Shown in pieces: positions 1 through 24,401 of a stretch of 24,401 bases of DNA. The stretch is from a virus. The translations under genes and the position numbers were made by a program. Position 1 is the first letter of the stretch. Each line of letters starts with the position of its first letter. The notes under the pieces are model-generated. The model saw only the letters and a program-made list of their open reading frames with translations, did not search any database and was not told the DNA's origin. Where the stretch lies: positions 1 through 24,401 of the IMG/VR virus record IMGVR_UViG_3300044994_000187; one strand, 5' to 3'.

Positions 1-427
1 GCAACACGGTCACCATCCGGTAATCCTGCAGGCTGAATCCCGTGACATCGATGATCGTGCTGTTGCTAACGGCCGCATCAGTAAGCTTCGCCCACAAGTC
101 TCCGGCATCCACATACGCCTTGCGCGCCGCGTGGTTGGCGTTAGTAGGGTTGGAGGCGGGCAGCGTCAGTTGTCCCGTCATGGACACGGTGCCGTCCGCC
201 TTGACAAAGGAGGAAGCAGCAATAGCCTGCGCAGTCCGCAACGGCGTCATCATCTTGGCGTTGTTGGTGCCCGCCTCCGCTTCCGCCTGGCTGGCAATGG
301 GCACCAACGTGTCCAGATTGGACAAGTCGTAGCGATGCACCTCTCCTGTCACCGCATCGCAGCCCAGCAGCGTATGCTGCGTGGCCGAAAAAGGGCTGAC
401 AAGCGAATATGAAAACACTGTAGGCAT
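1..427 (-). CDS. tail fibre protein, N-terminal part (cut by window edge)
   Basis: The first 142 codons of a gene that continues past the left edge with no stop. Residues 47-66 contain EAEAGTNNAKMMTPLRTA, a signature often seen in tail-fibre and tail-collar proteins. Residues 78-107 fit the fibre pattern DGT-x-MTG-x-LTLP...A-ARKAYVD, seen in repeated form in many phage fibres. The expected role is host recognition, with the N-terminus attached to the tail. The ATG overlaps the stop of the preceding 1526-residue virion gene as TGATG and has GGAGG 7 nt upstream, so the start is well supported and translation is probably coupled. The receptor-binding C-terminus is outside the window. Confidence 0.88.
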   Translation of the reverse strand, partial: MPTVFSYSLVSPFSATQHTLLGCDAVTGEVHRYDLSNLDTLVPIASQAEAEAGTNNAKMMTPLRTAQAIAASSFVKADGTVSMTGQLTLPASNPTNANHAARKAYVDAGDLWAKLTDAAVSNSTIIDVTGFSLQDYRMVTVL

Positions 428-3400
428 CACTTGCCCTCCAAGGTTGAACCCACATCACGCTGTATGGACGACACTAGCCCATCCCAATACAGCAGATTGT
501 TGAACAAGATAAGCCTCCTGACAGCGGCAGCTTGCTGACTGCCCGTGGCCTCATCGGACGTGAAGGCCCAGATGGCCTGCATCCACGGCTCCATGGCAGG
601 AGCACCGCCCAAGGTGGCCGTGCCTGCCAGCCTTACCCAGTTGGGGTTCTTGTTCCACGGCTCGGGGTCAAGGCCAAGCAAGGGGCGTGCGCCAAGCTGG
701 TTTCCGCTATAGACCTCCACCATCGTGTTCACGTCGGTCAGAATCCCAAGCACGCCCGAGCGTTCCACGGCCGAGTAGAGGCGTTCGAAGGACATGATCG
801 GATGCCGCTCGTGCGGCGACTGACGCCCTCCCTCGACAAGCCACGCCAGGGCAATCATGGCAGCAATGCCCGACAAGGCGCGCTTGTCCCGCTCCTGCAA
901 CGCGGCACCCAAGACGCGCTGCGTCGCGCCAAGGGCAAAGCCGCGATAGAGAAATACCATGCGGCCCCACGGCTCGCGCATGAACAGAGGCCGGTCGGCA
1001 GCGCCGGGAGTCGGCACCGCCGTCTCGGTCAGGCGCGCGATGGCACCCCGCAGCGCTTGCGCCGCCTCCTGATCCTGCCAGCCAGGCGTGGAGGCAAGCG
1101 CCAGCCTGCCGTGGGAAGGCCTGCCTTGAGCATCCCAAGCTGCCGCAATGCGCAGCGCCATCTCGTCCGACACGCGCTCACGCAGGATCTTGAGGCGCGC
1201 GGGGGTGATGGTCCCCTCAGCCATGGCGATGGAGTCCTTGAGGATCTGGCTTTGCAGCACCGCGCCAGTAAACCGCTTGAGCAAGTCGGTCCAAGGCGCA
1301 AGCAGATTGACAAGGTTGAGGGTGTTCGAGGCGCGGTCGAAAAACCGCTCGACTTGCGTGCGCCCGAAGTCTCCAGGGTGGATGCCAGCAATCTCGTGCG
1401 CGCGAGACATGAGCACCATTTCAGCAGCCGCGCCCATCTCGTCCGCTTCTGCCATGGCCAACTTGAGGCCCTTGCGCTCCTTGGCCACGGCATCGAGCAC
1501 GGTGCCGAACATCTCCCGGAATCCGACTGACCAACCCGTGCGGCCCAGATCGGTGACGGCGGAGAACACCGCCTTGCCCATCTGGGTCAGCACGGCAAAC
1601 TGCATTTGCAGCCTCAGGATGCGAGGCGTCCACAGGGTCGGGTCAGAAGGCATGCCGTAGCGGTCGGCCACCACGTCGCGGAGGTCGGTCAGCGCCCCTA
1701 CGATCCGGTCCTGCACCTGTAGCGGAACGCCTTCGCTGGTGAGATCGTGCCGCAGCGCTTCAATGAAGCGCGTGAGGTTCGCGTCGCCAAAGCGCCTCGC
1801 GGTTTCCAGAAGCGGTGCCATGGTGCGGTGATATCGCAGCGCCAGCTCGTCGGCATTGAGATGCAGCCATGGCGCGAGGTCGGCGGTAGCGGCGGTGATG
1901 GTCCGGCTTTCGGCGTGCCCCTTGCCGGAGCCAAAGTCCATCTGGGTGCGCGCCGTGGAGTCCACATCGAAGATCGCATCCACGATGCCGGTGCCGAAGG
2001 TCTCGCCCTTGTTCTTGATCGTCAACGGCACGTCCGCATCTTCCAGCGCCTTGGACACGATCATCCGTTGTTCGAGCGTCCATTCGCGGTCGCCGTCCTT
2101 GCCTCGCAGCGACTGGACCTCGCGCTTGAGGCGCTTCCATCCGCTTTCCCGCAGGGAAGGAAGAAGGGGCTGGACAGTGGCATCGGCCTTGCTGGCGGCC
2201 TCGTCGGGCGTCATGCCACGGATGGTGTTCCATCGCACCAGCACGGCGCGGAGGGCCTCGCCCGGCCCCCCGCCTGCCATGTTGGCGACAAGGGCATCGG
2301 CACGAAGCTGCACAACGTCGGGGCGCACCTGCTCCCAGCCGAACTTCTGGCGCTGCACCCAGTCCTTGGCGATGATCTCGGCCAGCCCGCTCGGATCCCT
2401 GGCGATGGCTTCCGGCATCCACACATGCGGCACATAGGCCGGGTCAGCCTTCTCGCCCATGCGCGCCATGCGATCTTGCAGCTCGCGGTCCGCGTCGAGC
2501 TTGACGTGAAGCTCGTCGGCGAGGTTCAGGAGATGGTCAATCTTCTCTCGCAGCCTTTGCGTGACAGGCTCCGTGTCCTGACCAGCGGCCTTGCGCAAGT
2601 CCTGCAACTGCGCCGCGAGCGTCCTGCGGCGCTCCACCAGCGCCCGGTAGGCTTCGAGGTCCTGGCCGGAGAGAAGGCGCGTCCAGCCTTCGGTAGCGCG
2701 GTTCATGTCCTCAGACACCTGGCGAAGCTCGGCGATGGTATCGTCCCATGCCTTCTTCATCTCGGGCGTCATGAGGGTGCGATGGCGTGGCCCGCGCTTG
2801 ACTTCGGCAGCTTCGGCCTTGTCCAGCATCCGCGCCAGCTCCGGAAGCTGCTGCTGCTCGATGCGGTTGAGGATGGCGGCCCGCGACTGGATGCGGCTTG
2901 CGAGCTTCTCGGGGGTGAGCAGCAGCCCAAGGTCGATGGCCTGCTGCTGATACCAGTCGTAGAACTCCCGGTGCGCCTTCATGGCGCGCATGACGTTCGG
3001 ATCTGGGTGGCTGCCCTGGGCAAGCGCCATGCCGACTTCGCGGTTGAACTCGCCCCACGTCATCTTGCCTTCGCTGCCTGCCGCGCGCTGGTGAACGGCG
3101 GTCAGGCGTCGCGCGATTTGCCCCACGGTGCCAGCGCCGCTGCGCTCGACGCCGAGATGGGCAAACCATGCGTCGGTCAGCTCGCGGTTGGCGCGCATCA
3201 GCCGAGCCGAAAGCACCTTCACGGCGTTCTCGACGGACTGCTCGGGCCGCCAGCCCAAGCGCTCGCCGACGTAGTGCAGGCCGGGCGAGTCGGCCAGCAG
3301 ATCGGCCGCCTGCGACACACGCTGCCGCAAGTCCTCGGGAATCAGCCCCTTGGGCAGATTCTTGAGGTAGTGCCACGGCATCTGCCGCCACCGCAGCTTG

Positions 3401-5007
3401 TCCAGCAGCGAGCCAGGCGCAATGCGGTCGGCGTTCTCGCTCGGCTGCTTCGGCTGCCGCATGCCCACCGGCGGCTGCCGAGGAGGAGGTGGTGGCGCAC
3501 CAGAGGGGGCCGCAATCGGCCCTGGAAGGGCCGTGGATGCGTCCGAAGGCGTCCCGGCTACTTGGGTAGCAGGCGAGGCCTCAGGCCCCTCAGAAGCCAT
3601 CCTAGGGGCTTCTGAGGGAATGTCGGCCTCGGAGGCGCTCTTGATGGACGCAATGCTTTCCGACGCCTCCCTGGCCGCCTTGGCAACGCTCTCCGCCACC
3701 TCGGGCGGCGCGGTGCTGGCAGGCGTCTCGGCCTCGTCCGCCAGCGCCGCCATCTGGTCCATGCGACGGTTGAACTCAAGAATGAGACGCCGCGCCTCGG
3801 CACCCTCGGCCCCCTCCAACTCGCGCAGAATGGCACCGATCTCGCTCTCAAGGCGCTTCATCCGCGCCTCGGAACCCTCGGCCGAACGCAGCCAAGCCTC
3901 GAACTCCACCCGCGTCTCGGGATCGGGAAAGCCCAACGTGGCGCGCACGTCGCGCACAATCTCCTTCGCCACCGGCAATGGCTCGTCCGGCAGCAACGCC
4001 TTGGCAATCTTCGATTCCGTCTCGCCGCGCCTGCTGCGCGCCTCAATCTCCTGCGTCAAACCATCGCGGTCCGCCAACGCACGCGACGACGCCCACTGCT
4101 CCATGAACGCAGCGTTCGGAGAAGGCTCCGGAGGGCGCGGCTCAGGCGCAGGCGGCGGCGGACGAGAAGGCGGCGGAGGCGGCTCGGGAGGCGGAGGCGC
4201 AGCAGCGGACGGCGTTTCCACGCGAGGCTCAGGAGCGGGAACCTCGCCCTCGCCACGCGGCCGCATCGTCGGAGGCGGCGGCGGAGCCATGTCAGGCGGC
4301 CGGTCAGGAAAGTCAGGCAACACACGCTGACTCGCAGGCACGCCAGCCGCACTTTGCTGCTGCCACGCCTCAAGACGCGCCTGGGCCACATCAAAGCGGC
4401 CCAAGGCCTGCATGTCGATGAACTTGCCAATGGCACCGCCCAACGCAGCACCAAAGATCGCCGCGCCAGCAATCGTCACAGGCGGGTTGCCAGCCGTCTC
4501 CGCAGGCATCGTAGCCTGCCGGATGCCACTGTCAATCGCCTCGCCAACCACCCCCTGCAACGCGCCCGTCAAGGCACCACGCACAAACCCGCGCCCAATG
4601 CCAAGAGGACCCGTCAGAATGTTGCCGGGCGTCAGGATGCCAGCCAGAAAGCCGGAGACGTTGAGGTTGTGACCAACCATCGCCTCCAACTCCTCCTGGC
4701 GACGCTTGCTCTCCAACACCCACCGCTTGATCGCCTCCGTCTCGGCAGGCGAACGGCTGTCGCGGAAGAAATGCAGATTGTTCTCGAAGCCACGAAGCGC
4801 CTCGCGGTCCTCGAAGGGGTTGTAGCCCTCCACCGGCGGATAGCGGCCCGCAAAGGTCGCCTCCGTCCGGATCGCCATGCGGCGAATCTCGTCCTCCAAA
4901 CCGGACTCGAACCACCACTGGTTGACGAAGTTGCGCAGGAACGAAGCCTCGGCAGCAGGCTCCGTGCCACGGCCAAGCGAGTAGCGGCTCGGGCTTTGCT
5001 CGCTCAC
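427..5007 (-). CDS. giant internal virion protein (T7 gp16-like position)
   Basis: A 1526-residue protein, probably the largest ejected internal protein of the podovirus virion. It starts with GTG in a GTGA overlap with the upstream 925-residue gene and ends in a TGATG overlap with the tail fibre. Residues about 117-200 are glycine- and alanine-rich and hydrophobic, possibly membrane-inserting during ejection. Residues about 230-298 are strongly proline-rich, with a second proline-rich stretch before about residue 530. The rest is largely charged and helix-prone. Near the C-terminus, MVFLYRGFALGATQRVLGA resembles a conserved element I recall from large internal virion proteins. I see no lysozyme or transglycosylase motif at the N-terminus, where T7 gp16 has one. 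Identity rests mainly on size, composition and position. Confidence 0.82.
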   Translation of the reverse strand: MSEQSPSRYSLGRGTEPAAEASFLRNFVNQWWFESGLEDEIRRMAIRTEATFAGRYPPVEGYNPFEDREALRGFENNLHFFRDSRSPAETEAIKRWVLESKRRQEELEAMVGHNLNVSGFLAGILTPGNILTGPLGIGRGFVRGALTGALQGVVGEAIDSGIRQATMPAETAGNPPVTIAGAAIFGAALGGAIGKFIDMQALGRFDVAQARLEAWQQQSAAGVPASQRVLPDFPDRPPDMAPPPPPTMRPRGEGEVPAPEPRVETPSAAAPPPPEPPPPPSRPPPPAPEPRPPEPSPNAAFMEQWASSRALADRDGLTQEIEARSRRGETESKIAKALLPDEPLPVAKEIVRDVRATLGFPDPETRVEFEAWLRSAEGSEARMKRLESEIGAILRELEGAEGAEARRLILEFNRRMDQMAALADEAETPASTAPPEVAESVAKAAREASESIASIKSASEADIPSEAPRMASEGPEASPATQVAGTPSDASTALPGPIAAPSGAPPPPPRQPPVGMRQPKQPSENADRIAPGSLLDKLRWRQMPWHYLKNLPKGLIPEDLRQRVSQAADLLADSPGLHYVGERLGWRPEQSVENAVKVLSARLMRANRELTDAWFAHLGVERSGAGTVGQIARRLTAVHQRAAGSEGKMTWGEFNREVGMALAQGSHPDPNVMRAMKAHREFYDWYQQQAIDLGLLLTPEKLASRIQSRAAILNRIEQQQLPELARMLDKAEAAEVKRGPRHRTLMTPEMKKAWDDTIAELRQVSEDMNRATEGWTRLLSGQDLEAYRALVERRRTLAAQLQDLRKAAGQDTEPVTQRLREKIDHLLNLADELHVKLDADRELQDRMARMGEKADPAYVPHVWMPEAIARDPSGLAEIIAKDWVQRQKFGWEQVRPDVVQLRADALVANMAGGGPGEALRAVLVRWNTIRGMTPDEAASKADATVQPLLPSLRESGWKRLKREVQSLRGKDGDREWTLEQRMIVSKALEDADVPLTIKNKGETFGTGIVDAIFDVDSTARTQMDFGSGKGHAESRTITAATADLAPWLHLNADELALRYHRTMAPLLETARRFGDANLTRFIEALRHDLTSEGVPLQVQDRIVGALTDLRDVVADRYGMPSDPTLWTPRILRLQMQFAVLTQMGKAVFSAVTDLGRTGWSVGFREMFGTVLDAVAKERKGLKLAMAEADEMGAAAEMVLMSRAHEIAGIHPGDFGRTQVERFFDRASNTLNLVNLLAPWTDLLKRFTGAVLQSQILKDSIAMAEGTITPARLKILRERVSDEMALRIAAAWDAQGRPSHGRLALASTPGWQDQEAAQALRGAIARLTETAVPTPGAADRPLFMREPWGRMVFLYRGFALGATQRVLGAALQERDKRALSGIAAMIALAWLVEGGRQSPHERHPIMSFERLYSAVERSGVLGILTDVNTMVEVYSGNQLGARPLLGLDPEPWNKNPNWVRLAGTATLGGAPAMEPWMQAIWAFTSDEATGSQQAAAVRRLILFNNLLYWDGLVSSIQRDVGSTLEGK

Positions 5008-7781
5008 GGCGCAACACCCATGCTGGGCACGCCCTCAGGATTCAGGTTCCGCCTCTCCCGCGCAGCACGCTCCCTCTCGACGGCCGCATCGGCGGCAGCA
5101 TCGCCACGAATCAGCTCGGCACGCCGCGCCTCAAGATCGAACAAGGCAGGCACCGCCGTGCCCTTCTCCGCCACGTAGGTCGTCACCGTGCCATGGCGAT
5201 ACCACACCTGCCACCGCCGCTGGCCACCCTCATAGACCGGACGCAGCCGAACAGTGTCCAAGCTCATGCCGGAAGGCAGCTCAATCCCGCGCTGCGCAGC
5301 CTCCTGCCGGATGTGCGGCACAACCCACGCCAGCGTCGAGGAAGCGTTCCTGTAAGGAGCCGCAAGCACCACCTCAGGCGGGTCGCTGACAAGCCGCGCA
5401 CGGTCGGAAGCCACCTGGCCAATGTCGTTCACGCCCAGCCGCGACACGCCAAAGCGCATGAAAGGCACGCTGTCGATCACATTGCCACCCTCATCACGCG
5501 CCCACGTGCCTGTCTTGGCAAAGTTGTCGATCACCGAAGCCGCAGACGCCTCAAGGCTCCGGTTGTTGAAGGCCATGTCAAAGAGGATGGCCCGCCGCAT
5601 CAGATCTCGGACATGCTCAGACACCTCAGGCGCACCCTCACCCCAAGGCATGTTGCGCGCAAACCAGGAAACAAGCCGTGGAACCTGCTGGTCAATGGCC
5701 GCATCCAACGCCGCACGCTGCTTGGCCGGAGTGTCGCCAAGCCGCTTCTCGGCATCGTCCAGCGACGTGGGACGCCCACTCGCCGCCTGCCGCCTCTCCT
5801 CCATCACCGCCAACGGCGCAGCGCCCGCCACCGAAATATCGGCCTCCACCCCGTCCAACATCTTCTTGGTGAACGGGTCGAGGCGATCAAAGGCCGCACG
5901 CACGTTCGGATGCTCGGACTTCTGACCAGCAGCATAAACACGCGCCGCCGCCATGAACGCCTCGATGTTGTCGCTCCGCGCACCCCTCTGGATGTAATCC
6001 CGCATCTCGGACGGCAACACGCCCGTCATCGCGGCAATCATGCCAGCCTGCAACCCACGCGTCGTCGCATAGTCAGGCGCCACGCCACGATTGGCAGACA
6101 ACGCAATCTCGGAAGCCACCGCAATATTGCTGGCACTATGGTCGGCAGGCGGCATGCCGGGCTGCGCATGCAAAAGCATCCTCCGCAACCGCTCCATGGA
6201 CGCAGCACGCTCCTTCTGCGCCTCCTCGTAACGCTTCGCCAGCTCCGCAGCCTGTGCCGCCTGCACCGCAAGCGGAGCACCCTCGTCAATCTGGGAAGGC
6301 GGCAAGCCACCCGTCAAAGGCTCACCACCCAGAATCGCCTCGATCATGGCCTGCTCAATCGCACGGCCACGCGCCACCGCTACTCCCTGCCGCCACTCCG
6401 TCGCAGCACGCTCACTGCGCGACGCAATCGCCGACTCCACACGGGTCCACGAACCGGGAATCAACTCCTCAATCTCATTAAGCCGCGCCTCGTCGATCCG
6501 CCCCTCGCGAATCATCCGCTCCCTATCGGCCAGCGCTCCCCGCCTCAACGCCTCTGCACGCTCGCGCAAAACCGCCTGCGCCTGCGCATCCTGAACCTCA
6601 CGCAGCGCAGCCTCATCGATCCGCGACTCCATGGGACCAGACGGATTCTCGCCACCCAGCTCACGGCGCACCTCCGCCTCAACCTCCTGCGCCGCCGCAA
6701 TCCGTCGCTCCTGCGCCCATAGCGTCGCCATCAAACTACCGCGCCGATGCAACGCCATCTGCGCACGGTCAGTGATGCCGGGCACAACACGCTCAAGATC
6801 ACGCAGCCGGGCCATGTCCAACTGGCCCGACAACACCATCGTCTCGACTTCCGTCAGCGCACGCCGCGTGCCCTCGACGCGCGTGTAATCCTCTACCGCA
6901 CGCGCCACATTCAAACGCGCACGCGCCAGCTCGCCAACCTGCCGCCGCTCCTCGACCGACAGCTCGCCCGGCGCAATCTCGCCACGCTCGAACCGCTCAA
7001 GATAAGCATTGCCACCCGCATAGCCGCGCCGCCGCGCCTCGGCCAACACACCGCCCGCAATGCGCGCCACCTGCAACTCGCGCCGCTGCATCTCCGCATC
7101 GGCAGCCGTCAACACCCCGAGCTGAACCTGCCGCTCAAGAAACTCCTCGCCACGGCGCAAGGCGGGAGCCGGGTCCTCGCCCCGCTCCACCGCCATCTGC
7201 ACCTCGCTGACATTCAGATTATGCGCCTGCGCCGACAAACGCGCCGAAGCCGCCACCTCCCGCGCCATGCGCGCCTCGGCCAGACGCGCATGCACACGCG
7301 CCGCCTCGGTCAGATAGATCGGCATCAACTCCGCACGCAAAGCCTCGGGAGCCGCCGACGCCCACCCCTCTACTTGCGCCCGCGCCGCAGTCTCAAAGGC
7401 GTCAGGATCGGTCGCATGCGTGCGCGCCAGCTCGCCCATGCGCTGACTGGCGGCAATGCGGCTCTCGGACAAATAACGGGCTACCAGCGCCGCGCGATAT
7501 CCCTCATTGGCATGGAAGAAAGACCCGGCACCCGGCAGATCCTCCGGCATGACCGGCATGCCGTCCTTCATCTCGAACTGCACCTGGCCCGCACGGATGA
7601 CCCCGCGCTCCACCGCCTGCGCCTTGGCACCCTGCGCAGCCATGTTGATCAGCGGATCAAGGTTGCCAGCAATCACACGCCCCGGCGTGCCAGCCACCTG
7701 GCCCGCACGCTCAATCTCGCGCGTGTCAATGACGCCCAGAGGGCGGACGCCAGCAACCCTTTCGTCGCGCTGCAACGTCAT
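5004..7781 (-). CDS. internal virion protein (T7 gp15-like position)
   Basis: A 925-residue, mostly helical, Ala/Arg/Glu-rich protein without cysteine clusters, clear membrane segments or enzyme motifs. In T7-like phages the middle internal virion protein (gp15) builds part of the channel that crosses the periplasm during DNA ejection; by position between gp14-like and gp16-like genes this is the likely role. I prefer the ATG at 7781: it forms an ATGA overlap with the upstream gene and has GAGGGG about 7 nt upstream. An in-frame TTG two codons earlier is less likely. The stop overlaps the next gene's GTG start as GTGA. The segment HNLNVS near residue 190 recurs in the giant virion protein next door. 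Confidence 0.8.
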   Translation of the reverse strand: MTLQRDERVAGVRPLGVIDTREIERAGQVAGTPGRVIAGNLDPLINMAAQGAKAQAVERGVIRAGQVQFEMKDGMPVMPEDLPGAGSFFHANEGYRAALVARYLSESRIAASQRMGELARTHATDPDAFETAARAQVEGWASAAPEALRAELMPIYLTEAARVHARLAEARMAREVAASARLSAQAHNLNVSEVQMAVERGEDPAPALRRGEEFLERQVQLGVLTAADAEMQRRELQVARIAGGVLAEARRRGYAGGNAYLERFERGEIAPGELSVEERRQVGELARARLNVARAVEDYTRVEGTRRALTEVETMVLSGQLDMARLRDLERVVPGITDRAQMALHRRGSLMATLWAQERRIAAAQEVEAEVRRELGGENPSGPMESRIDEAALREVQDAQAQAVLRERAEALRRGALADRERMIREGRIDEARLNEIEELIPGSWTRVESAIASRSERAATEWRQGVAVARGRAIEQAMIEAILGGEPLTGGLPPSQIDEGAPLAVQAAQAAELAKRYEEAQKERAASMERLRRMLLHAQPGMPPADHSASNIAVASEIALSANRGVAPDYATTRGLQAGMIAAMTGVLPSEMRDYIQRGARSDNIEAFMAAARVYAAGQKSEHPNVRAAFDRLDPFTKKMLDGVEADISVAGAAPLAVMEERRQAASGRPTSLDDAEKRLGDTPAKQRAALDAAIDQQVPRLVSWFARNMPWGEGAPEVSEHVRDLMRRAILFDMAFNNRSLEASAASVIDNFAKTGTWARDEGGNVIDSVPFMRFGVSRLGVNDIGQVASDRARLVSDPPEVVLAAPYRNASSTLAWVVPHIRQEAAQRGIELPSGMSLDTVRLRPVYEGGQRRWQVWYRHGTVTTYVAEKGTAVPALFDLEARRAELIRGDAAADAAVERERAARERRNLNPEGVPSMGVAP

Positions 7782-8248
7782 CGCCAACCCCTCGCCAGCT
7801 CAGCGCCACCGCGCAGCAAGGTCGCACCCGCCTGCAACCACGCAGACGATCCCTGATGCGCATACGCAGCCCCGGAAACCTGCGCGCCCAAGCCCTGGAG
7901 CTGCAACTGCCGGTCACGCGCACCGCCCATCAGCCGGATGTTGCTCACATCCTCAGCCGCCATGCGCTCGTTCTCGCCCGCAATCGTCAGCCACGATCCC
8001 GAAGTCCAAGGGTCGTAGCCGGACGCACCAGCCAAAGCGAGGTTCGAACTCGCCACCAACCGCGCGCGGCGCTGGCGCTCGTTCTCCTCCTGCGCCGCCT
8101 GAATGGCGTTCAGCTCCCGCTGCTCGTCCGCCTGCACCTGCTGGATGCGCGCCGCCGCCTGGCCAAAAGCAGCCTGCGAGCGCGCCGACGAATATTGCAT
8201 CGCAGCAGAAGCGACAGTGGCCGCAGCCATCAGGAAGGTCCAGCTCAT
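7778..8248 (-). CDS. small internal virion protein (T7 gp14-like)
   Basis: A 156-residue protein with a short hydrophobic alanine-rich N-terminus (residues 5-20), then a Gln/Glu/Arg-rich helix (about 30-65) likely to form a coiled coil, and a Gly/Ala/Gln-rich C-terminus. Size, this layout and the position directly after tail tubular protein B match the gp14 class of ejected internal proteins, thought to form a pore in the outer membrane. The ATG lies 3 nt after the tail tubular B stop, with GAGGTGAGG upstream. The stop overlaps the next start as ATGA. Confidence 0.8.
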   Translation of the reverse strand: MSWTFLMAAATVASAAMQYSSARSQAAFGQAAARIQQVQADEQRELNAIQAAQEENERQRRARLVASSNLALAGASGYDPWTSGSWLTIAGENERMAAEDVSNIRLMGGARDRQLQLQGLGAQVSGAAYAHQGSSAWLQAGATLLRGGAELARGWR

Positions 8249-8251
8249 CGC

Positions 8252-10426
8252 CTACATCCTCACCTCTCGGGCCAGCGACAAGACGCTGACCGAAGACCAC
8301 GGTTCGTCATTCTTTCGCATGATGCGCAACGCCCCGTCCTGCTGCCACCCGAACAAACGGGAACGACGCCACACATGCTCGTCGCGCTCAGCCAACACCA
8401 GCTTGCCAATGATCGGAGCAAGGTTCTCATCGAGAATCGGCAAATCGTCATGATCCCTCAACACCTGCTGCTCTCGAATGTGCAACCCCTCCACAGACAA
8501 GGAGGATCCCCCCTCGATGCGCACAGGATCAAAAGGACGGGCCAAGACGGCCGCCCGCACCACACGCAAGCGGCGGTTGTCGCTCGGCCCAAACTGGCCA
8601 TCGAACTTGACCGGATACACCGCCACGCCCCACACATACGGCACGCCGATGAACCAAGGGCCATCGGTCTCGTTCGCACCCACCGTATAGTTGATGTTGC
8701 CAGCCGTAGGCGTATAGGTGTTCAGCTTCTTCCTCTTGCCGCGCGACTCCATCAAATAGAAAGTGCCATCCGCAGTAGACACATGCGTAGTCGGCATCGT
8801 GCCACTGCCCGTCGTGGCCCTCCCCCGCGCACCATCCAAAGGCACCCCCCACATCTGCGGATGCAGAACCTCCAATGACAACAAAGGCGCAGGATCATCC
8901 CCGACCGCCTCGACACGCGAAACAACGATGAAAAGAAAACCGTCGCCAGAAGCGACCGCATGCACTTTCCCGGCAGGCCGCACCTGCGGCACATGGCCGA
9001 TTGTCCAACGGACAAACTGCAGCGTGCGCCCGCTCTCGCCGCTCCGCATGACCATCATCTGCCGCCAATCGAAGCGATCCGCTTCGAACATCTCGGCCGA
9101 CGCGCGCGTCGGAGAAACCAACAACTCCTCAGGCGCATACCGAGAACCGGACATGGCCGCCATGGAAAGCTGGTCGGAAGCAATCTCCATGTCAGGCGCG
9201 GCAATGTTGGCCGCCTCGGAACGAACCCGCCGCTCCAACTCCGCGTTGTCAAACGACAGGCGACGCAGCGTCACACGATCCGACTGCCAGTAGAACACCC
9301 CATCGTCCAGCGCCACCGGCTCGGAATGGTGCGCCCCAAAGTCGCCAATCAGGCGCGGCACAATGTTGGACGGAGACAAAGGCTTGCCGGAAGCCGTCTC
9401 GAAATAGCGCGCCCTGTTCGCACTCAGCACCAGCAGATAACGGGCACCATAGACATGCCGAATCTCGCCATCGCCCGAATTGGACAAGGTGACAGCAATG
9501 CCTTCCGCATCCCCGCCCTGCCCCTGGTCAAAGTTGTAGTAGGCCCCCGTGCATGACAACCACACCGCATCGGGCGCATCGCGCACCCCGCCGATCACCA
9601 ACCGCTGCTCAAACAAGCAAACGGAACGCGGATAGCCACGCCCACTGCTCCACGCCTGCTCTTCCCACCGAGGCATCGCCACGTTCGGCGTCAAGCCCGG
9701 AGCCTCGAAATTAAAGGTCGCCGCAGTCGGACTGGTATAAACCGTCATGGTCGCATGGACCCACTTGTTCGTGCTCGTGTCAAACACACGGAAAGCACGC
9801 CCCACCTGCGCCGCCGCGAAGGCAGCAGCCGACGTGGTGACGGTCCGAGCACCAGCGCCAGCACCACCCGTGTTGGTAATCGTCACCGCCTGCGGCGCAT
9901 AGCGATAGAAAGGCCACTTCGCCACACTGCCAGCCTCGATGGCATAAGCCGACATGGCAAAGCTTGTTTGGCCCGTGCGCCGTATCACCTGCGGTTCCAC
10001 GTCGGGATGCACCACGAACATCGTATCGAAAGCAGTCGCCACACGCACACGCTCGATATCGCATGCGCCGAACGTGATTGCAGAACCGCACGCCGTCACC
10101 GCAGGAAGGAACGTGCCGGACGTGAGGTTCTGGTCCCACAAATAGAACTGAACCACCACGTTGTTGCCGGACTGATAGAAGTAAGCCAGGTAGAGGCGGT
10201 CGTTGGAACCGATGAAGGCGTAGAGACGCACCTTTGTCGTTTGTCCGCCCGTCAGCGTCGTCAGGAACCACGTGCCAGGACGCGAGACCGCACCACCAGC
10301 AGCACGCGGCCAGCAGTTGACCATCCGCCGCGCCGCATTGCGAAGCTGCGGCGTGTCGCGGCGGCCACTCACGTCGTCGTCCAGCTCGCCCGCCACAAAG
10401 CTGGTCTGCAGCGTATCAACGCGCAT
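8252..10426 (-). CDS. tail tubular protein B (nozzle)
   Basis: A 724-residue protein, close to the length of T7 gp12 (794). It starts MRVDTLQTSFVAGELDDDVSGR, with the TSFxxGELD element typical of tail tubular B proteins, followed by an RNxxxxPRGG-like stretch (RRMVNCWPRAAGG) and W/Y-rich beta-strand sequence. It is expected to form the hexameric nozzle below the gatekeeper ring. The reading frame stays open upstream, but the ATG at 10426 is clearly the start because it makes a TGATG overlap with the tail tubular A stop and begins the recognisable family N-terminus. Confidence 0.93.
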   Translation of the reverse strand: MRVDTLQTSFVAGELDDDVSGRRDTPQLRNAARRMVNCWPRAAGGAVSRPGTWFLTTLTGGQTTKVRLYAFIGSNDRLYLAYFYQSGNNVVVQFYLWDQNLTSGTFLPAVTACGSAITFGACDIERVRVATAFDTMFVVHPDVEPQVIRRTGQTSFAMSAYAIEAGSVAKWPFYRYAPQAVTITNTGGAGAGARTVTTSAAAFAAAQVGRAFRVFDTSTNKWVHATMTVYTSPTAATFNFEAPGLTPNVAMPRWEEQAWSSGRGYPRSVCLFEQRLVIGGVRDAPDAVWLSCTGAYYNFDQGQGGDAEGIAVTLSNSGDGEIRHVYGARYLLVLSANRARYFETASGKPLSPSNIVPRLIGDFGAHHSEPVALDDGVFYWQSDRVTLRRLSFDNAELERRVRSEAANIAAPDMEIASDQLSMAAMSGSRYAPEELLVSPTRASAEMFEADRFDWRQMMVMRSGESGRTLQFVRWTIGHVPQVRPAGKVHAVASGDGFLFIVVSRVEAVGDDPAPLLSLEVLHPQMWGVPLDGARGRATTGSGTMPTTHVSTADGTFYLMESRGKRKKLNTYTPTAGNINYTVGANETDGPWFIGVPYVWGVAVYPVKFDGQFGPSDNRRLRVVRAAVLARPFDPVRIEGGSSLSVEGLHIREQQVLRDHDDLPILDENLAPIIGKLVLAERDEHVWRRSRLFGWQQDGALRIMRKNDEPWSSVSVLSLAREVRM

Positions 10427-15147: not shown

Positions 15148-15584
15148 CCACGCTCCTTCACGAACACGGACATCCCCGGCTTATACCCCGCCGCACGCGC
15201 CAACGCCACATAGCCCGGCACCTCACCGGGGAAATGCCCGTGCATCAACACACGCGACGCACCCTGACGCCAACACCAGTCCTCGCCCGCCAGCAACAAG
15301 AGCCTCGCCACAGCCGTGCCACGCCACGGCGGACGCACATAGAACTTCACCACCTGCCCAAAAGACGGAACAAACAAGGGATCCACCGCCATCAGGCAGC
15401 CCCCGGCCACACGCCCGTCCTCCTCCACAGCCAGAAACCCCGCCATGCCCGGCATCGAAAGACCCCACGCCAAGCAACCCGGCGCATCATCGGACAACCG
15501 AACGCCCGCCTCCGCACACCCCTCGCGGAACAAATCGAGGACAACCCCGAGGTCGCCAGGACTAGCGCGCACGACGCGAGGCAT
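15144..15584 (-). CDS. GNAT-type N-acetyltransferase
   Basis: A 146-residue protein. The central segment KFYVRPPWRGTAVARLLL (residues about 88-105) matches the acetyl-CoA-binding motif A of GNAT enzymes (V-R-x-x-x-R-G-x-G/A). It is preceded by a beta strand (AGGCLMAVDP) and followed by YVALARAAGYKP, a typical GNAT motif-B end. The substrate cannot be told. Single GNAT genes of this size occur between terminase and portal in some podoviruses of Proteobacteria. I chose the ATG at 15584, which overlaps the terminase end by 23 nt, because sequence farther upstream in this frame is arginine-rich shadow of the terminase. Confidence 0.8.
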   Translation of the reverse strand: MPRVVRASPGDLGVVLDLFREGCAEAGVRLSDDAPGCLAWGLSMPGMAGFLAVEEDGRVAGGCLMAVDPLFVPSFGQVVKFYVRPPWRGTAVARLLLLAGEDWCWRQGASRVLMHGHFPGEVPGYVALARAAGYKPGMSVFVKERG

Positions 15585-17115
15585 AAGCACCCAAAGGACT
15601 ATAAGAAGCCGACGCACGCGCCTTCTGCGGCGGACGCGGACCACGCAAAAGCTGACGCCCCGCACCCGTGCCAAGACACGCATACTGCAACGCATCATGG
15701 ACATGCGAGAAGATGTTCTTCTCAGGCTCGGAAGCGAACCGCGTCGCTCCCGCCACCTGCAACCGCCGGATCCGGTAACCCCCGAGAAAGCCAGAACGCA
15801 ACGTCGGCGCACCCGGAACCGCACGGCTGCCCGGCCACACCAACAGCGCAGGACCCTCCTGGTTGCGGCTCAGGAGAAGGGAACGCACCGCGCCCTGACG
15901 CACATCGGGGTCGTTCGTCTCGGCCGGGAGAATCGGCAACCCACACGCAGCCGCAATCATGAACGGCGTCCGCGCATCCGTCTGGGCACGCTGGCTCCCC
16001 GCAGGATCGCCCCAAGCAATCCACTGCCGCTTCGACATATGCTCAGGAAACAACTGCATGAGGTCAGGCAACACCACGTCCTTCAAGAACTGCTCCAACC
16101 CCATGTTGGACGAAACCAGCTCACGCAACACACGCCGCTGGCCGTTCACCACCTGCATCACCACGCACGCAGGCGTCAGCCCGAAGTCAAAACCCAACAC
16201 CAGCTTGACATTCGGCACCACAGGAATCGGCTCCCGAGCACGATGAAACCCGTCGTCCCACTCGGGATACACCGCCAAGCCGTCCGCCGTGGACGCCAGC
16301 CGGTTCATGATATACTGGTCGATGTAGGCCTTCGATTTCCCCTGCGCGAGATCGAGGTAGTAGGTCGCACCAAGGTTGGAAGCGTTCTCCGCCTCGGGAT
16401 TGACACGATAGCCCACAACCGTCCGGCCGTCAGGCCCGAAATCCTCGATCAACCCACCCGGCTGACGAAACAACGCCCACCCAGGCGGATTCACCGGAAA
16501 CGTGTCACGCTCCTCAGGCGGCATCCACTCGGGAACCGGAGCCTCACCAAACAACCACGCCAACCAGCAATCCCCGTCCCAAGCATTGCTGTCCGCGATG
16601 AACCACTTGCGCGGAGGAATCGGCGAGCCAGGAGGCCGATAACGCCTCAGCCGCTCGTCGATCACATCAATGATCTCCTTCGACTGCTCCTTGATCTCGT
16701 TGGCCCACGCGCCAGTGAGATCGAGCGACCGGAGACTCCGCAACTGGTCCGGACGGTCCAGCGGAATGAACAACACATCCGCCTCCACATCCCCGAACCG
16801 GAACTCGTAGGTGTAAGGCGGAGACCACACCATCCGGCCCAAAGGACTCCCGTCAGGAAACCACTGCAACCACGTCGCCATCGTCGTGCTCTTGAGCTGC
16901 GGACCCGTGTTCCGCGTCACCAGCCAACGCGACCGGCGAATCCCGTCGTCGCTCGGCGGATAGGCACACGCCAAACGGAAAATCTCCATGCAGCACGCCG
17001 CAGACTTGCCGCTGCCCACAGGACCACGAATCACACGGAACGGCGCATCGCTCCGCATGAACTCCCGCAACACCCTGCCATCAGGGCGAAACTTCCGGGT
17101 GAACTCAACCGTCAC
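15562..17115 (-). CDS. terL: terminase large subunit
   Basis: A 517-residue packaging motor. Walker A is GPVGSGKS at residues 31-38. The Walker B end with catalytic glutamate is LTGAWANE at 133-140. The C-terminal RNase H-like nuclease has candidate metal ligands D310 (LGFDFGL), D370 (WGDPAG) and D474 (HVHDALQYA). It would pump DNA into the procapsid at the portal and cut the concatemer. It starts with GTG, in a GTGA overlap with the stop of the 267-residue frame upstream. The C-terminal tail is basic and low in complexity. A small-terminase candidate is not adjacent but about 6.6 kb away on the same strand. Confidence 0.95.
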   Translation of the reverse strand: MTVEFTRKFRPDGRVLREFMRSDAPFRVIRGPVGSGKSAACCMEIFRLACAYPPSDDGIRRSRWLVTRNTGPQLKSTTMATWLQWFPDGSPLGRMVWSPPYTYEFRFGDVEADVLFIPLDRPDQLRSLRSLDLTGAWANEIKEQSKEIIDVIDERLRRYRPPGSPIPPRKWFIADSNAWDGDCWLAWLFGEAPVPEWMPPEERDTFPVNPPGWALFRQPGGLIEDFGPDGRTVVGYRVNPEAENASNLGATYYLDLAQGKSKAYIDQYIMNRLASTADGLAVYPEWDDGFHRAREPIPVVPNVKLVLGFDFGLTPACVVMQVVNGQRRVLRELVSSNMGLEQFLKDVVLPDLMQLFPEHMSKRQWIAWGDPAGSQRAQTDARTPFMIAAACGLPILPAETNDPDVRQGAVRSLLLSRNQEGPALLVWPGSRAVPGAPTLRSGFLGGYRIRRLQVAGATRFASEPEKNIFSHVHDALQYACLGTGAGRQLLRGPRPPQKARASASYSPLGAYASRRAR

Positions 17116-17918: not shown

Positions 17919-18035
17919 GGAACAGCTCATAGCAGAGGCAAGAGGGGGGAGGGAAGCCCGCAAGTTGGGGGGAAAAATCATAGAGGGGGTTTACGGCTCC
18001 CCACGCTGTCCCGACTTTTTCCCCTCCCCTGGCCC

Positions 18036-18317
18036 CCGCCCCCTCCCTTCGGTCGGGGGCGGTGGCCCGGCCGCCGCGCCCCTGCGGGGCGCGGCGGCTG
18101 TGGCCGCCCTTCGCTTCGCTGCGGGCGGCAATGCCCCCCTTCGGCTTCGCCTTCGGGGGGTGCGGCGGGTTCCGCTGGCTTCGCCAGCGTCACCCAAGGA
18201 AGGCCGCCGCGCCTTTGCGGCGCGGCGGCGTGCCACCGCTCCGCTGCGCGTCGCGGTGGGTCGCCCTCCTCCTGCTCCGCAGTCGGAGGGTGCGGCAAAG
18301 CCCACTGGCTGCGCCAG
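18036..18317. repeat. array of about nine consecutive GC-rich hairpins
   Basis: Stems with short loops follow one another: 18036-18062 (8 bp), 18070-18098 (13 bp perfect, loop TGC), 18103-18129 (7 bp), 18134-18160 (6 bp), 18173-18189 (7 bp, loop TTC), 18203-18229 (11 bp, loop of 5), 18233-18259 (7 bp), 18264-18290 (6 bp with an inner 4-bp stem) and 18305-18317 (5 bp, loop TGC). None has a T-tract, so they are not ordinary intrinsic terminators. Many loops contain TTCG or TGC. Similar palindromes are, from memory, common between genes in GC-rich Alphaproteobacteria. Confidence 0.8.
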
Positions 18318-18352
18318 GCCCAAAGGAACCAAACCCCGCCCACACGACAAAA

Positions 18353-18534
18353 ACAGACATACCCCGCAATCGGCCCAGAATCGCCGTAGAGAGGCATAAG
18401 GCACGCCCAGCTACCAAGGTAGCGGACAAATCGGAGAAGCCACTCCACGGCCTTCCTAGAGCCTTCCAGAGGCATGTCTAAGGACAACCCAACCCCGGCG
18501 CGGCCCAGCAAGCGACAAGGCTCAGCGCACGATG
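18353..18534 (+). repeat. long repeat, copy 1 of 3
   Basis: It begins ACAGACATACCCCGC and contains ATCGCCGTAGAG, the 14-nt dyad GCTACC-AA-GGTAGC at 18410-18423, then CCACTCCACGGCCTTCCTAG and GAGGCATGTCTAAGGACAACC. The same landmarks occur in the same order and at nearly the same offsets (dyad at +57, conserved block at +84) in the copies starting at 18582 and 19073. Confidence 0.8.
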
Positions 18535-18581
18535 CGCCAGGTCAAAGGGGTCAAAGCCTCGAAAGGCAAGTGCGTCAGAAT

Positions 18582-18804
18582 CAGACATGCCCCTAGAAAG
18601 CCCCAGGATCGTCGTAGAGCGGCCTCGGCACCTTCCAGCTACCAAGGTAGCAGCCACGCGGTTGAGGCCACTCCACGGCCTTCCTAAAGCGTTCCAGAGG
18701 CATGTCTAAGGACAACCCAGCACACACGGGCGGGCGGCCAGCCAGCGACACGCCTCAGCAAGCGCCCAACAGCCGCAAAAGGTCCAGCACATAAGCGGCG
18801 TCGG
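18582..18804 (+). repeat. long repeat, copy 2 of 3
   Basis: It begins CAGACATGCCCCTAG and contains GGATCGTCGTAGAG, the dyad GCTACC-AA-GGTAGC at 18638-18651 (offset +56), CCACTCCACGGCCTTCCTAA, and GAGGCATGTCTAAGGACAACC identical to copy 1. The downstream part (CAGCGACA...AGCAAGCGCCC...AGCCG) matches copy 3 better than copy 1. Confidence 0.8.
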
Positions 18805-19001
18805 TGGCACAAAACACACGCAACATCAGAAATCCCACACACGCCGTAGGGACTTTCGGGGAAAGAAAGCAAGCAAAAACAACGCAATAACCCTACAGAG
18901 GGGTCGGATATACCCCCTCCCCGCATCATACACCCGCATGCCGCGCCTCCGACGCTGCTCTAACCGATGCACTCCTGCCCCAGCCCGAATCTTCGGCTTT
19001 G

Positions 19002-19073
19002 CGAAGGTATCAGCTCTACATCCCCTACCTTCGCATCCCCGAAGGTATCCCTACCTTCGCATCTTCGAAGGTG
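19002..19073. repeat. alternating array of five TACCTTCG / CGAAGGTA half-sites
   Basis: CGAAGGTA at 19002-19009, TACCTTCG at 19026-19033, CGAAGGTA at 19040-19047, TACCTTCG at 19052-19059 and CGAAGGTG at 19066-19073. The orientation alternates strictly. Sites 2-3 and 4-5 form two hairpin-like dyads with 6-nt centres (CATCCC and CATCTT). This is the layout of a repeated operator or of binding sites for an origin-binding protein. Confidence 0.7.
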
Positions 19074-19283
19074 CGACATGCCCCGCCAAGCCTCTAGGAT
19101 CGTCGTAGAGTGGCCTCCGCCCTTCGGCGCTACCACCCTAGCGGCCACATCGTCGAGGCCCTTCCACGGCCTTCCTTGCGCCTTCTCGGGCCATGTCTAT
19201 GCGCGTCCCTCGCGCGGCCAGCGAGCGACATGCTTTAGCAAGCGCCCGTCAGCCGTAGAGGGTCCTGCCTCTAAGCGGGTGCG
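19073..19283 (+). repeat. long repeat, copy 3 of 3 (diverged)
   Basis: It begins GCGACATGCCCCGCC and contains AGGATCGTCGTAGAG identical to copy 2. Its dyad is altered to CGCTA-CCACCC-TAGCG at 19128-19143, at the same offset (+56). CTTCCACGGCCTTCCTTG and CCATGTCTATG follow, and CAGCGAGCGACATGCTTTAGCAAGCGCCC parallels copy 2. The copy starts directly at the last half-site of the array at 19002-19073. Confidence 0.75.
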
Positions 19284-20298: not shown

Positions 20299-20324
20299 AA
20301 ACAAACCCGCGCCTTCGGCGCGGG
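20297..20324 (-). terminator. intrinsic terminator facing left (minus strand)
   Basis: CCCGCGCC (20306-20313), a loop of 3, and GGCGCGGG (20317-20324) form a perfect 8-bp GC stem. Read on the minus strand it is followed by TTTGTTTTT (20305-20297), a proper U-tract. On the plus strand no T-run follows. It would stop leftward transcripts at the end of the 125-residue gene and so marks a possible minus-strand RNA coming from 20325-20600. Confidence 0.65.
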
Positions 20325-20510
20325 AGAGGACAGGGGCAGCCCTTGTTAGGCAAAGAAACAAGCCTAAATCCGGCCCCCGTCCCCGTCAAGGACTGCGGGC
20401 GGCTGCGCCGCCCTTGCCGCGCTACGCGCGGTTGCTGCGCAATCCTTGACAGGGCCGTGGTCCGGAGGAAAAGCGCTGCTATCGCCAACAAGGGCAGCCC
20501 CTGTCCTCTC
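20324..20510. repeat. 187-bp element bounded by 24-bp inverted repeats
   Basis: Left arm 20324-20347 and right arm 20487-20510 are inverted repeats of 24 bp with a single mismatch. Inside are GTCAAGGA (20385-20392) paired with TCCTTGAC (20443-20450), extended by TGCG/CGCA after one mismatch. Within that stem are two more hairpins, GGGCGGC/GCCGCCC (20397-20413) and CCGCGC/GCGCGG (20417-20431). TAGGC/GCCTA (20347-20366) forms another. No reading frame of note crosses it. It could be a small non-autonomous mobile element or a branched structured RNA. Confidence 0.7.
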
Positions 20511-23184: not shown

Positions 23185-23759
23185 TGGTGGCATGCGAGTT
23201 CAGCGGCACCGTGCGCCGTGCTTTCCGCGAGAGGGGCGTCGATGCTTGGTCATGCGACCTGATCGAAGCGACGGATGGACCGCCAGGCCAGGTGCCCTAT
23301 CACATCATCGGCGACATAAGGGAGGTGCTGGCCACACGCTGGGGTGCGCCCAGCACTTGGGACATGATCATTGCCTTTCCTCCCTGCACCTACCTGTGCT
23401 CGTCGGGTGCGCGATGGTGGTCGAGGCCCGGCAATGCCGAGCGGCAGGCGCAAGCCCTGAACTTCGTGCGTTCCCTGCTCGCGCTGGACTGTCCCCGCAT
23501 TGCGGTTGAGAACCCTGTCGGCATCATCAGCACGGCCATCCGCAAGCCGGACCAGATCGTCCACCCCTGGATGTTCGGCGATCCGGTCAGCAAGGCAACA
23601 TGCTTGTGGCTCAAGGGCTTGCCCAAGCTGGTGCCGACACGGGTGGTGCAGGAGCGGCAACCTCTGATTCACCGTATGCCACCAAGCCCCGACCGAGGGC
23701 GCAAGCGCAGCATCACCTTCCGCGGCATCGCTGCCGCGATGGCCGAGCAGTGGTGCTAG
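23175..23759 (+). CDS. small cytosine-C5 DNA methyltransferase-like protein
   Basis: A 194-residue protein. CEFSG (7-11) followed by AWSCDL (24-29) is the SAM-binding motif I region, IAFPPCTYL (67-75) holds the PPC catalytic motif IV with C71, and VENPVGI (111-117) matches the ENV-type motif VI. C5 methyltransferases usually exceed 300 residues and carry a target-recognition domain; none is evident here. Short versions of this kind are frequent in phages and may methylate phage DNA against restriction, or have lost activity. Start is either ATG 23175 or ATG 23184; the latter makes TGATG with the upstream stop. The stop shares CTAG with the convergent gene. Confidence 0.82.
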   Translation: MRVMVACEFSGTVRRAFRERGVDAWSCDLIEATDGPPGQVPYHIIGDIREVLATRWGAPSTWDMIIAFPPCTYLCSSGARWWSRPGNAERQAQALNFVRSLLALDCPRIAVENPVGIISTAIRKPDQIVHPWMFGDPVSKATCLWLKGLPKLVPTRVVQERQPLIHRMPPSPDRGRKRSITFRGIAAAMAEQWC

Positions 23760-24244
23760 TCCCTCAAGTCGATCTCGATATGGGATTGCGGCTTGACTTC
23801 CACCCTTTCCGGGGGCTTGAGGCCGATGCGGTCAAGAATGGCAATGACCGCATCGAGCTTCACTTTGCCCGACACGCGCGGGTCTGTCAGGATTTGGCGC
23901 AGCACCTTGGGTGCCATGCGTGAGAGCAGCACGACCTCGCGTTCGACGCGGGCGCGCATGGCTTCCTTGAACTTCGGCTTGCTTTGCGCCACGCCTGCAT
24001 GCGCTGCGGTCGGAAACCCTGCAAGCCGGGCAGCGTGTTCCACCGAGTCGTTCAAGTCTATCTGGAACAGGGCTTCCACAAGCCTGCGCTGCGGCGGCGT
24101 CAGGGGCGCGAGGCCGTCGTCCTCGGCGAGCACTTCGTCGCTGGCGTGCAGCGTCAGTTGCTCAAGCTGCGCAAGCGCTTGTTCCTGTTCAAGCTGCCCG
24201 ACATTCTGGGCTGGCGCTGGATCGGGCTGGCTTCGACGTGGCAT
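23756..24244 (-). CDS. terminase small subunit-like protein
   Basis: A 162-residue protein. After a Gln/Glu-rich N-terminus, LTPPQRRLVEALFQIDLND (48-66) and SVEHAARLAGFPTA (67-80) resemble the helix-turn-helix part of small terminases (LTPKQxxFVxxY...A-ARxAGY). The helical 90-142 segment would serve oligomerisation, and there is a short acidic C-terminus. A small terminase recognises phage DNA for packaging. The ATG at 24244 has AGGAG 5 nt upstream; longer frames reach into the divergent gene. It is separated from terL by 6.6 kb, so the assignment rests on sequence pattern and a general HTH regulator remains possible. Confidence 0.65.
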   Translation of the reverse strand: MPRRSQPDPAPAQNVGQLEQEQALAQLEQLTLHASDEVLAEDDGLAPLTPPQRRLVEALFQIDLNDSVEHAARLAGFPTAAHAGVAQSKPKFKEAMRARVEREVVLLSRMAPKVLRQILTDPRVSGKVKLDAVIAILDRIGLKPPERVEVKPQSHIEIDLRD

Positions 24245-24247
24245 GAC

Positions 24248-24270
24248 TTCTCCTGTGGCCAACAGGAGAA
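24248..24270. promoter_or_regulatory. inverted repeat made of two divergent ribosome sites
   Basis: TTCTCCTGT (24248-24256) and ACAGGAGAA (24262-24270) are perfect 9-bp inverted repeats with a 5-nt centre. Each arm carries the AGGAG of one divergent gene: minus-strand start at 24244, plus-strand start at 24276. Only 31 bp separate the start codons, so each gene's promoter must lie inside the other gene. Confidence 0.8.
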
Positions 24271-24275
24271 TGCCC

Positions 24276-24401
24276 ATGCGACGCAGCAAGTTCAACAGCC
24301 AAAGCGTTGTGGTTGCTGGCCTGCGCTTCGACAGCAAGGCGGAAAGCGAGCGCTGGTGCCAGCTCCAGGCCTTGCAGCAGGCAGGGCGCATCACTGACCT
24401 C
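24276..24401 (+). CDS. DUF1064-type phage protein, N-terminal part (cut by window edge)
   Basis: Forty-two codons to the right edge without a stop. RRSKFNSQSVVVAGLRFDSK followed by AESERWCQLQALQQAG and RITDL fits the start of DUF1064 proteins (KYxxKKTxxDGxxFDSKxEAxxxxxLxxLxxxGxIxxL). This family is nuclease-like, related to Holliday-junction or endonuclease VII-type phage enzymes as far as I recall. The ATG at 24276 has AGGAG 7 nt upstream; another ATG at 24270 is too close to that site. The putative catalytic FDSKxE element is intact. Confidence 0.8.
   Translation, partial: MRRSKFNSQSVVVAGLRFDSKAESERWCQLQALQQAGRITDL

Follow-up and report, generated by a model that had tools for sequence, protein, structure and literature searches.

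A family of palindromic elements in one podovirus lineage, found between genes and in frame within a virion gene

Three copies of a repeat lie in the intergenic region that separates the rightward genes of a viral contig from its leftward packaging and structural genes. The question raised by this locus is what kind of sequence they are, as a preliminary description had left the choice between a repeated structured RNA, a partition or replication site and eroded copies of a coding segment. Our study analysed the whole contig, a linear IMG/VR virus record of 24,401 bp, referred to here as the window. Its leftward genes form a T7-like podovirus set, in which a domain search identified capsid (PF19821), scaffold-type (PF05396) and head-to-tail connector (PF12236) families, and a family search also identified terminase large subunit, tail and internal virion protein families. 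The closest named relative was Pelagibacter phage Hodr, at only 32% identity for the portal and 41% for the terminase. A weak match to the terminase small subunit family (E 2e-4) was seen on the minus strand at 23756-24394, far from the large subunit, and the matching place in a relative (locus L120) holds long ORFs on both strands (7639-8283, plus; 7642-8280, minus). The features on which the analysis of the intergenic copies was based are as follows.

15562-17115, leftward: terminase large subunit gene; copies 1-3 lie upstream of the leftward genes
18353-18482, minus strand: palindromic element copy 1; 123-bp core at 18356-18478, minus-strand hairpin of -67.3 kcal/mol
18582-18710, minus strand: palindromic element copy 2, whose hairpin is the most regular; core at 18584-18706, -85.0 kcal/mol on the minus strand
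19073-19200, minus strand: palindromic element copy 3; core at 19075-19197
18731-18798, no strand given: repeat-unit tail after copy 2, 79% identical to 19211-19278
19211-19278, no strand given: repeat-unit tail after copy 3, also found after the relative's copy r2

The existence of a three-copy repeat was borne out by an independent repeat search, which returned one family of 3 x 147 nt at 18345, 18573 and 19064, copies 2 and 3 being 78% and 65% identical to copy 1. Self-BLAST linked copies 1 and 2 (E 1e-33, 188 bp), 2 and 3 (E 7e-25, 216 bp) and 1 and 3 (E 2e-11), and over the 130-nt element the identities were 76% (copies 1-2), 68% (1-3) and 72% (2-3). Two further intergenic copies, r1 and r2, were found in the relative (L004/L120), and the 123-bp core of all five could be aligned without an internal gap. 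The repeat unit exceeds the short dyad, as the entire 123-130 bp is an imperfect palindrome, laid out as a central GCTA...TAGC dyad flanked by two inverted arms of ~44 nt each. Copies 2, 3 and r2 remain alike for ~70-90 bp past the end of the hairpin, and the spacing between the window's copies is irregular (228 and 491 bp). Two other structures were noted in this region: a row of GC-rich hairpins at 18031-18317, in the interval from the palindromes to the leftward genes, which includes a 119-bp direct repeat (71%), and at 20324-20510 a second, unrelated large palindrome, which spans ~190 bp, is self-complementary at 69% and has its terminal repeats around GACAGGGGCAGCCCTTGTT. The latter directly follows a small ORF and was unmatched in L120 and, by BLAST, in phages.

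Each intergenic copy can be folded end to end as one long hairpin. Folding z-scores for copies 1, 2 and 3 were -6.4, -10.2 and -5.2 on the minus strand and -2.3, -7.2 and -4.4 on the plus strand, and the two intergenic copies of the relative gave -8.2 and -4.1 on the minus strand. The dyad had been described as kept though its sequence changes; instead, GCTA...TAGC was found to be identical in seven of seven copies, including two that lie within a gene and are described below. What differs in copies 3 and r2 is the register, since an inner pair (C-G in copy 3) has been lost and an outer pair gained, and therefore no pair was replaced by compensation. A covariation test on five related sequences, which has low power, found that both members were altered in 3 pairs of a 46-pair structure, where shuffles gave 2.2 +/- 1.0, and that 87.0% of the cells of the consensus paired, against 86.5% in shuffles. 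A permutation test that seemingly favoured pairing was discarded as biased, because its structure had been derived from those very sequences. No Rfam family reached its gathering score, the lowest E for this stretch being 2.7, and a tRNA or tmRNA identity of the repeats was rejected. Of the proposal of a structured RNA there thus stands the strong hairpin of every copy, with neither covariation nor an Rfam match beside it, and descent of a palindrome at the DNA level would give such folding too. For a partition or replication site, nothing in favour was found. Arm-to-arm oppositions of G-T and A-C on the minus strand numbered 10:1, 8:2 and 7:1 in copies 1, 2 and r1, and the ratio was reversed in copies 3 and r2 (1:3 and 1:4). 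Strong hairpins are frequent in the lineage, and those elsewhere are other sequences: 130-nt segments with z < -5 made up 61 of 4856 in the window, 21 of 3060 in L120 and 0 of 3976 in a distant relative (L121), by a scan with a composition-based regression background, which is rougher than the per-sequence shuffles used for single copies.

The preliminary description had also read the conserved block in one plus-strand frame, as KPLHGLPRAFQRHV, RPLHGLPKAFQRHV and RPFHGLPCAFSGHV, and these peptides are correct as given. That frame is open through five of the five intergenic cores, an outcome reached in 10% of column shuffles. Variable columns were distributed evenly over the three codon positions (18/18/18 of 41 per position), pN/pS was ~0.7-1.5 where computable and all differences within the orthologous pair of copy 3 and r2 were non-synonymous. 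Coding selection does not act on the intergenic copies.

A first, weak sign of a further copy came from a covariance model built on the five intergenic copies, which scored 15.7 bits (record-wide E 0.03) within the gene of a large virion protein.

427-5007, minus strand: gene of a 1526-aa protein, host of the fourth copy; its C-terminal half resembles phrog_342, 'internal virion protein with endolysin domain'
3508-3628 (HMM match 3519-3625), minus strand: fourth, degenerate copy, read in frame as D-I-P-S-E-A-P-R-M-A-S-E..., with the dyad GCTACCCAAGTAGC kept

The five-copy HMM (nhmmer) matched this segment on the coding strand, at 3625-3519, with 30.1 bits (E 1.9e-8). A 90%-identical protein at another locus (L162) carries the segment as well (39.9 bits, E 3.5e-12), with the central dyad GCTACCCAGGTAGC. 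The segment was also matched in reverse orientation, at 18.6 bits in the window and 27.5 bits in L162; codon shuffles (1000 whole-gene and 1000 local) reached a maximum of 10.5 bits, and 0 of the 2000 reached 18.6 bits. This palindromic signature within a gene counts for a palindrome origin, as a plain coding linker should have none. The frame of the in-gene copy, D-M/I-P, is that of the intergenic copies. Its folding is significant in the window (z -5.5) and weak in L162 (z -2.3). This older copy sits in a linker of low complexity, part of an ejection-type virion protein whose gene is under purifying selection in comparison with L162 (pS 0.224, pN 0.052); for the element itself the values were 0.133 and 0.077, based on few sites. 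The left arm of the in-gene copy, at 3580-3624, is now a nearly perfect local hairpin (CCCTCAGAAGCC...GGCTTCTGAGGG) that resembles a template-switch event. Within the window, L120 and L162, in-gene copies were confined to this single gene, and several unrelated genes carrying the element were not found there. A more distant relative, G002, has a complete homologous gene (identity 56.6% C-terminal, 42.1% N-terminal) from which the segment is absent, the best HMM score in L121 being 2.6 bits. That comparison depends on the low-complexity linker, and as the linker of G002 is of similar length, an empty site cannot be claimed. The suggestion of eroded coding copies was therefore right in so far as the repeat has a homologue in a real gene, in that very frame, and wrong in so far as the intergenic copies are not selected for coding. 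A palindrome entering the gene is likelier than a piece of the gene decaying between genes.

Comparison of the two phages that carry the family allowed part of its history to be reconstructed. Orthology links copy 3 to r2 (90% overall; 93 of 95 bases in the core) and the in-gene copies to each other (86%), and both pairs imply that at least one intergenic copy and one in-gene copy predate the split of the two phages. Judged by these sequences, the family is older than the divergence of its two known carriers. The left arm of r1 agrees with copy 2 in 36 of 37 bases and with copy 1 in 28 of 37, whereas its remainder agrees with copy 1 in 71 of 86 and with copy 2 in 59 of 86; r1 thus resembles a mosaic made from copies 2 and 1. 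The relative also holds a half copy (the left half, at L120 2406-2451), so that its intergenic number is two plus a half, compared to three in the window. Recombination or deletion between copies best explains both r1 and the half copy. L162 and L120 come from the same metagenome and may be one virus. Beside copy 3, at 19002-19059, inverted motifs TACCTTCG / CGAAGGTA occur four times in the window and five times in L120, in a repressor- or iteron-like arrangement. The G002 contig (L006 1-760) ends ~700 bp upstream of the terminase gene, short of the place that would correspond to the intergenic copies and near where the hairpin-rich region starts in the window, and this end is possibly an assembly break at hairpins.

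Searches for further copies were made in viral and bacterial sequences, and the family is known from these two phages. No further copy was found in any of 80 viral loci related by their terminase. A listing by locus excluded L001-L009, L097-L104 and L120 (the contigs of the window and of L004) and did not extend to L162; the excluded range includes the distant relative L006, which was searched separately as L121/L122. Motif scans for copies in other viruses, IMG/VR included, yielded L004 as the only true match after model checking. An HMM search over 161 loci (1.38 Mb) found nothing at E < 0.001 outside the lineage, the best outsiders being L110 (E 0.0026) and L114 (E 0.0095), both of which had been picked by motif. 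BLAST of the region returned nothing in phages and only a 65-bp match (E 0.07) in three Rhizobium plasmids. Peptide matches in plasmids and phages (E >= 1) were rejected, and no model match in 4 loci was better than E 0.45. An origin in a host genome was rejected for 15 of 15 stretches from a collection of 84,980 species, all of which failed the covariance model (best E 1.3), and 0 of the 10 genomes reached from those stretches had a copy. With 8 candidates scored per genome, model R1 matched 0 of 385 sampled genomes in the class of G003, which is a weak negative, and a single match was obtained among 369 genomes in the class of G006 (G681, E 0.006). The G681 match was judged to be chance, being by eye a dnaJ-like zinc-finger coding stretch with an HMM score of 8.2 bits over 37 nt. 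The negatives from bacterial genomes are weak, because only first-look candidates were scored under strict filters. Y1_Tnp was found in 0 of 4 records, which are fragments, and no transposase was found among the scanned proteins, which cover part of the ORFs. By eye, and with no empty site for comparison, no target-site duplication was evident.

One reading of the cluster is that the hairpins act in cis in the 5' leader of the leftward packaging and structural transcript, through RNase III-like processing or an effect on termination or stability. The position of the copies upstream of the leftward genes, the better folding of the minus strand, the excess of G-T over A-C oppositions in copies 1, 2 and r1 and the conservation of copy 3 all agree with such a leader. 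However, the oppositions run the other way in copies 3 and r2, and this strand is G- and T-rich overall, which favours G-T regardless. Covariation was not seen, no minus-strand promoter was found, terminator-like sites were at chance level and one copy lies within a coding gene, so we regard this explanation as unlikely. Even less probable, in our judgement, is a putative DNA site for a phage or host protein, with a role as an origin or in packaging or recombination and with each arm as a binding unit. The cluster adjoins the packaging genes and the TACCTTCG/CGAAGGTA run common to the relative, and half copies exist, but one copy is located within a gene at a distance of 15 kb, the number of copies varies between relatives, their spacing is irregular and no binding protein was identified. 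It is most doubtful that the virion gene was the source, parts of it being copied to the intergenic region and coding selection then lost. Gene and intergenic copies do share a frame that is open in all five of the latter; against this, openness had a probability of 0.10 under column shuffling, the intergenic palindromes are much more regular than the in-gene one and the homologous gene of the distant relative is without the segment.

We therefore favour, with modest confidence, a local family of ~125-bp palindromes that was copied without a visible transposase, in the manner of RPEs (Rickettsia palindromic elements) or MITEs, and that entered one gene; as far as seen, the family is restricted to one podovirus lineage. 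The palindrome would spread as DNA, partly with its flanks, by local duplication and by recombination between copies, and would, on one occasion, have entered a gene able to accommodate it in its reading frame. As no transposase was seen, transposase-free copying is the likeliest route, by replication slippage, template switching or recombination. The lack of covariation is to be expected of descent from one palindrome, and hairpins in leftward transcripts would then be a by-product or a secondary use. Several observations speak against parts of this favoured reading. For insertion, no empty site is seen, the linker of G002 has about the same length and a target-site duplication was not evident by eye; for spread, the sequence that copies 2 and 3 share past the hairpin suggests duplication of a segment rather than transposition, the only copy outside the cluster is the one in the gene, and the orthologue of this in-gene copy in L162 folds weakly (z -2.3). 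In addition, the core of copy 3 agrees with its orthologue in 93 of 95 bases, above several neighbouring stretches, which suggests constraint and hence function, and this conservation speaks for either the leader or the DNA-site role. A more specific version can be offered tentatively: the lineage might possess coding-compatible palindromes of its own that spread with no transposase involved and have lengthened a virion ejection protein by a segment, being probably made and repaired by template switching as the phage replicates; this would be the RPE mode of life in a virus.

The closest known parallel is found in the Rickettsia palindromic elements, which are described as 105-146 bp long, both intergenic and fused in frame within genes, with a long hairpin, terminal inverted repeats, unrelated host genes and an uncertain target-site duplication (PMC2229807, PMC10969869). 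The phage elements resemble them in being imperfect palindromes of 123-130 bp whose arms pair end to end and in being found outside genes as well as, in two relatives, in frame within one gene. They differ in belonging to a virus at ~64% GC and in numbering 4 copies rather than dozens. No such elements in phages were described in the titles and abstract openings found, which does not prove their absence from print. The MITEs with long hairpin transcripts (ERIC, Correia/NEMIS and YPAL) are likewise characterized as imperfect palindromes of ~100-200 bp with open frames able to fuse to genes (PMC2229807). Unlike these, the phage family is not dispersed over a bacterial chromosome; no target-site duplication was evident in it by eye, and no partner transposase was found among the scanned proteins. 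REP/RAYT repeats are palindromic, GTAG- and CGTC-tagged and sometimes intragenic (PMC3733652); REPs are 20-40 bp long with a terminal tag, and the phage records had a Y1 transposase in 0 of 4.

Hairpins in phage transcripts also include T7-type RNase III sites and those of other phage leaders. The elements described here differ from them in that one copy lies in a gene.

The origin and mobility of RPEs in Rickettsia and its relatives are not understood. A palindrome family with copies both between and within genes, in a viral genome of ~40 kb that has close relatives, would offer a compact system for following transposase-free copying together with the tolerance of a protein for such segments, and if the hairpins act in late transcripts, the cluster would represent a new phage leader element.
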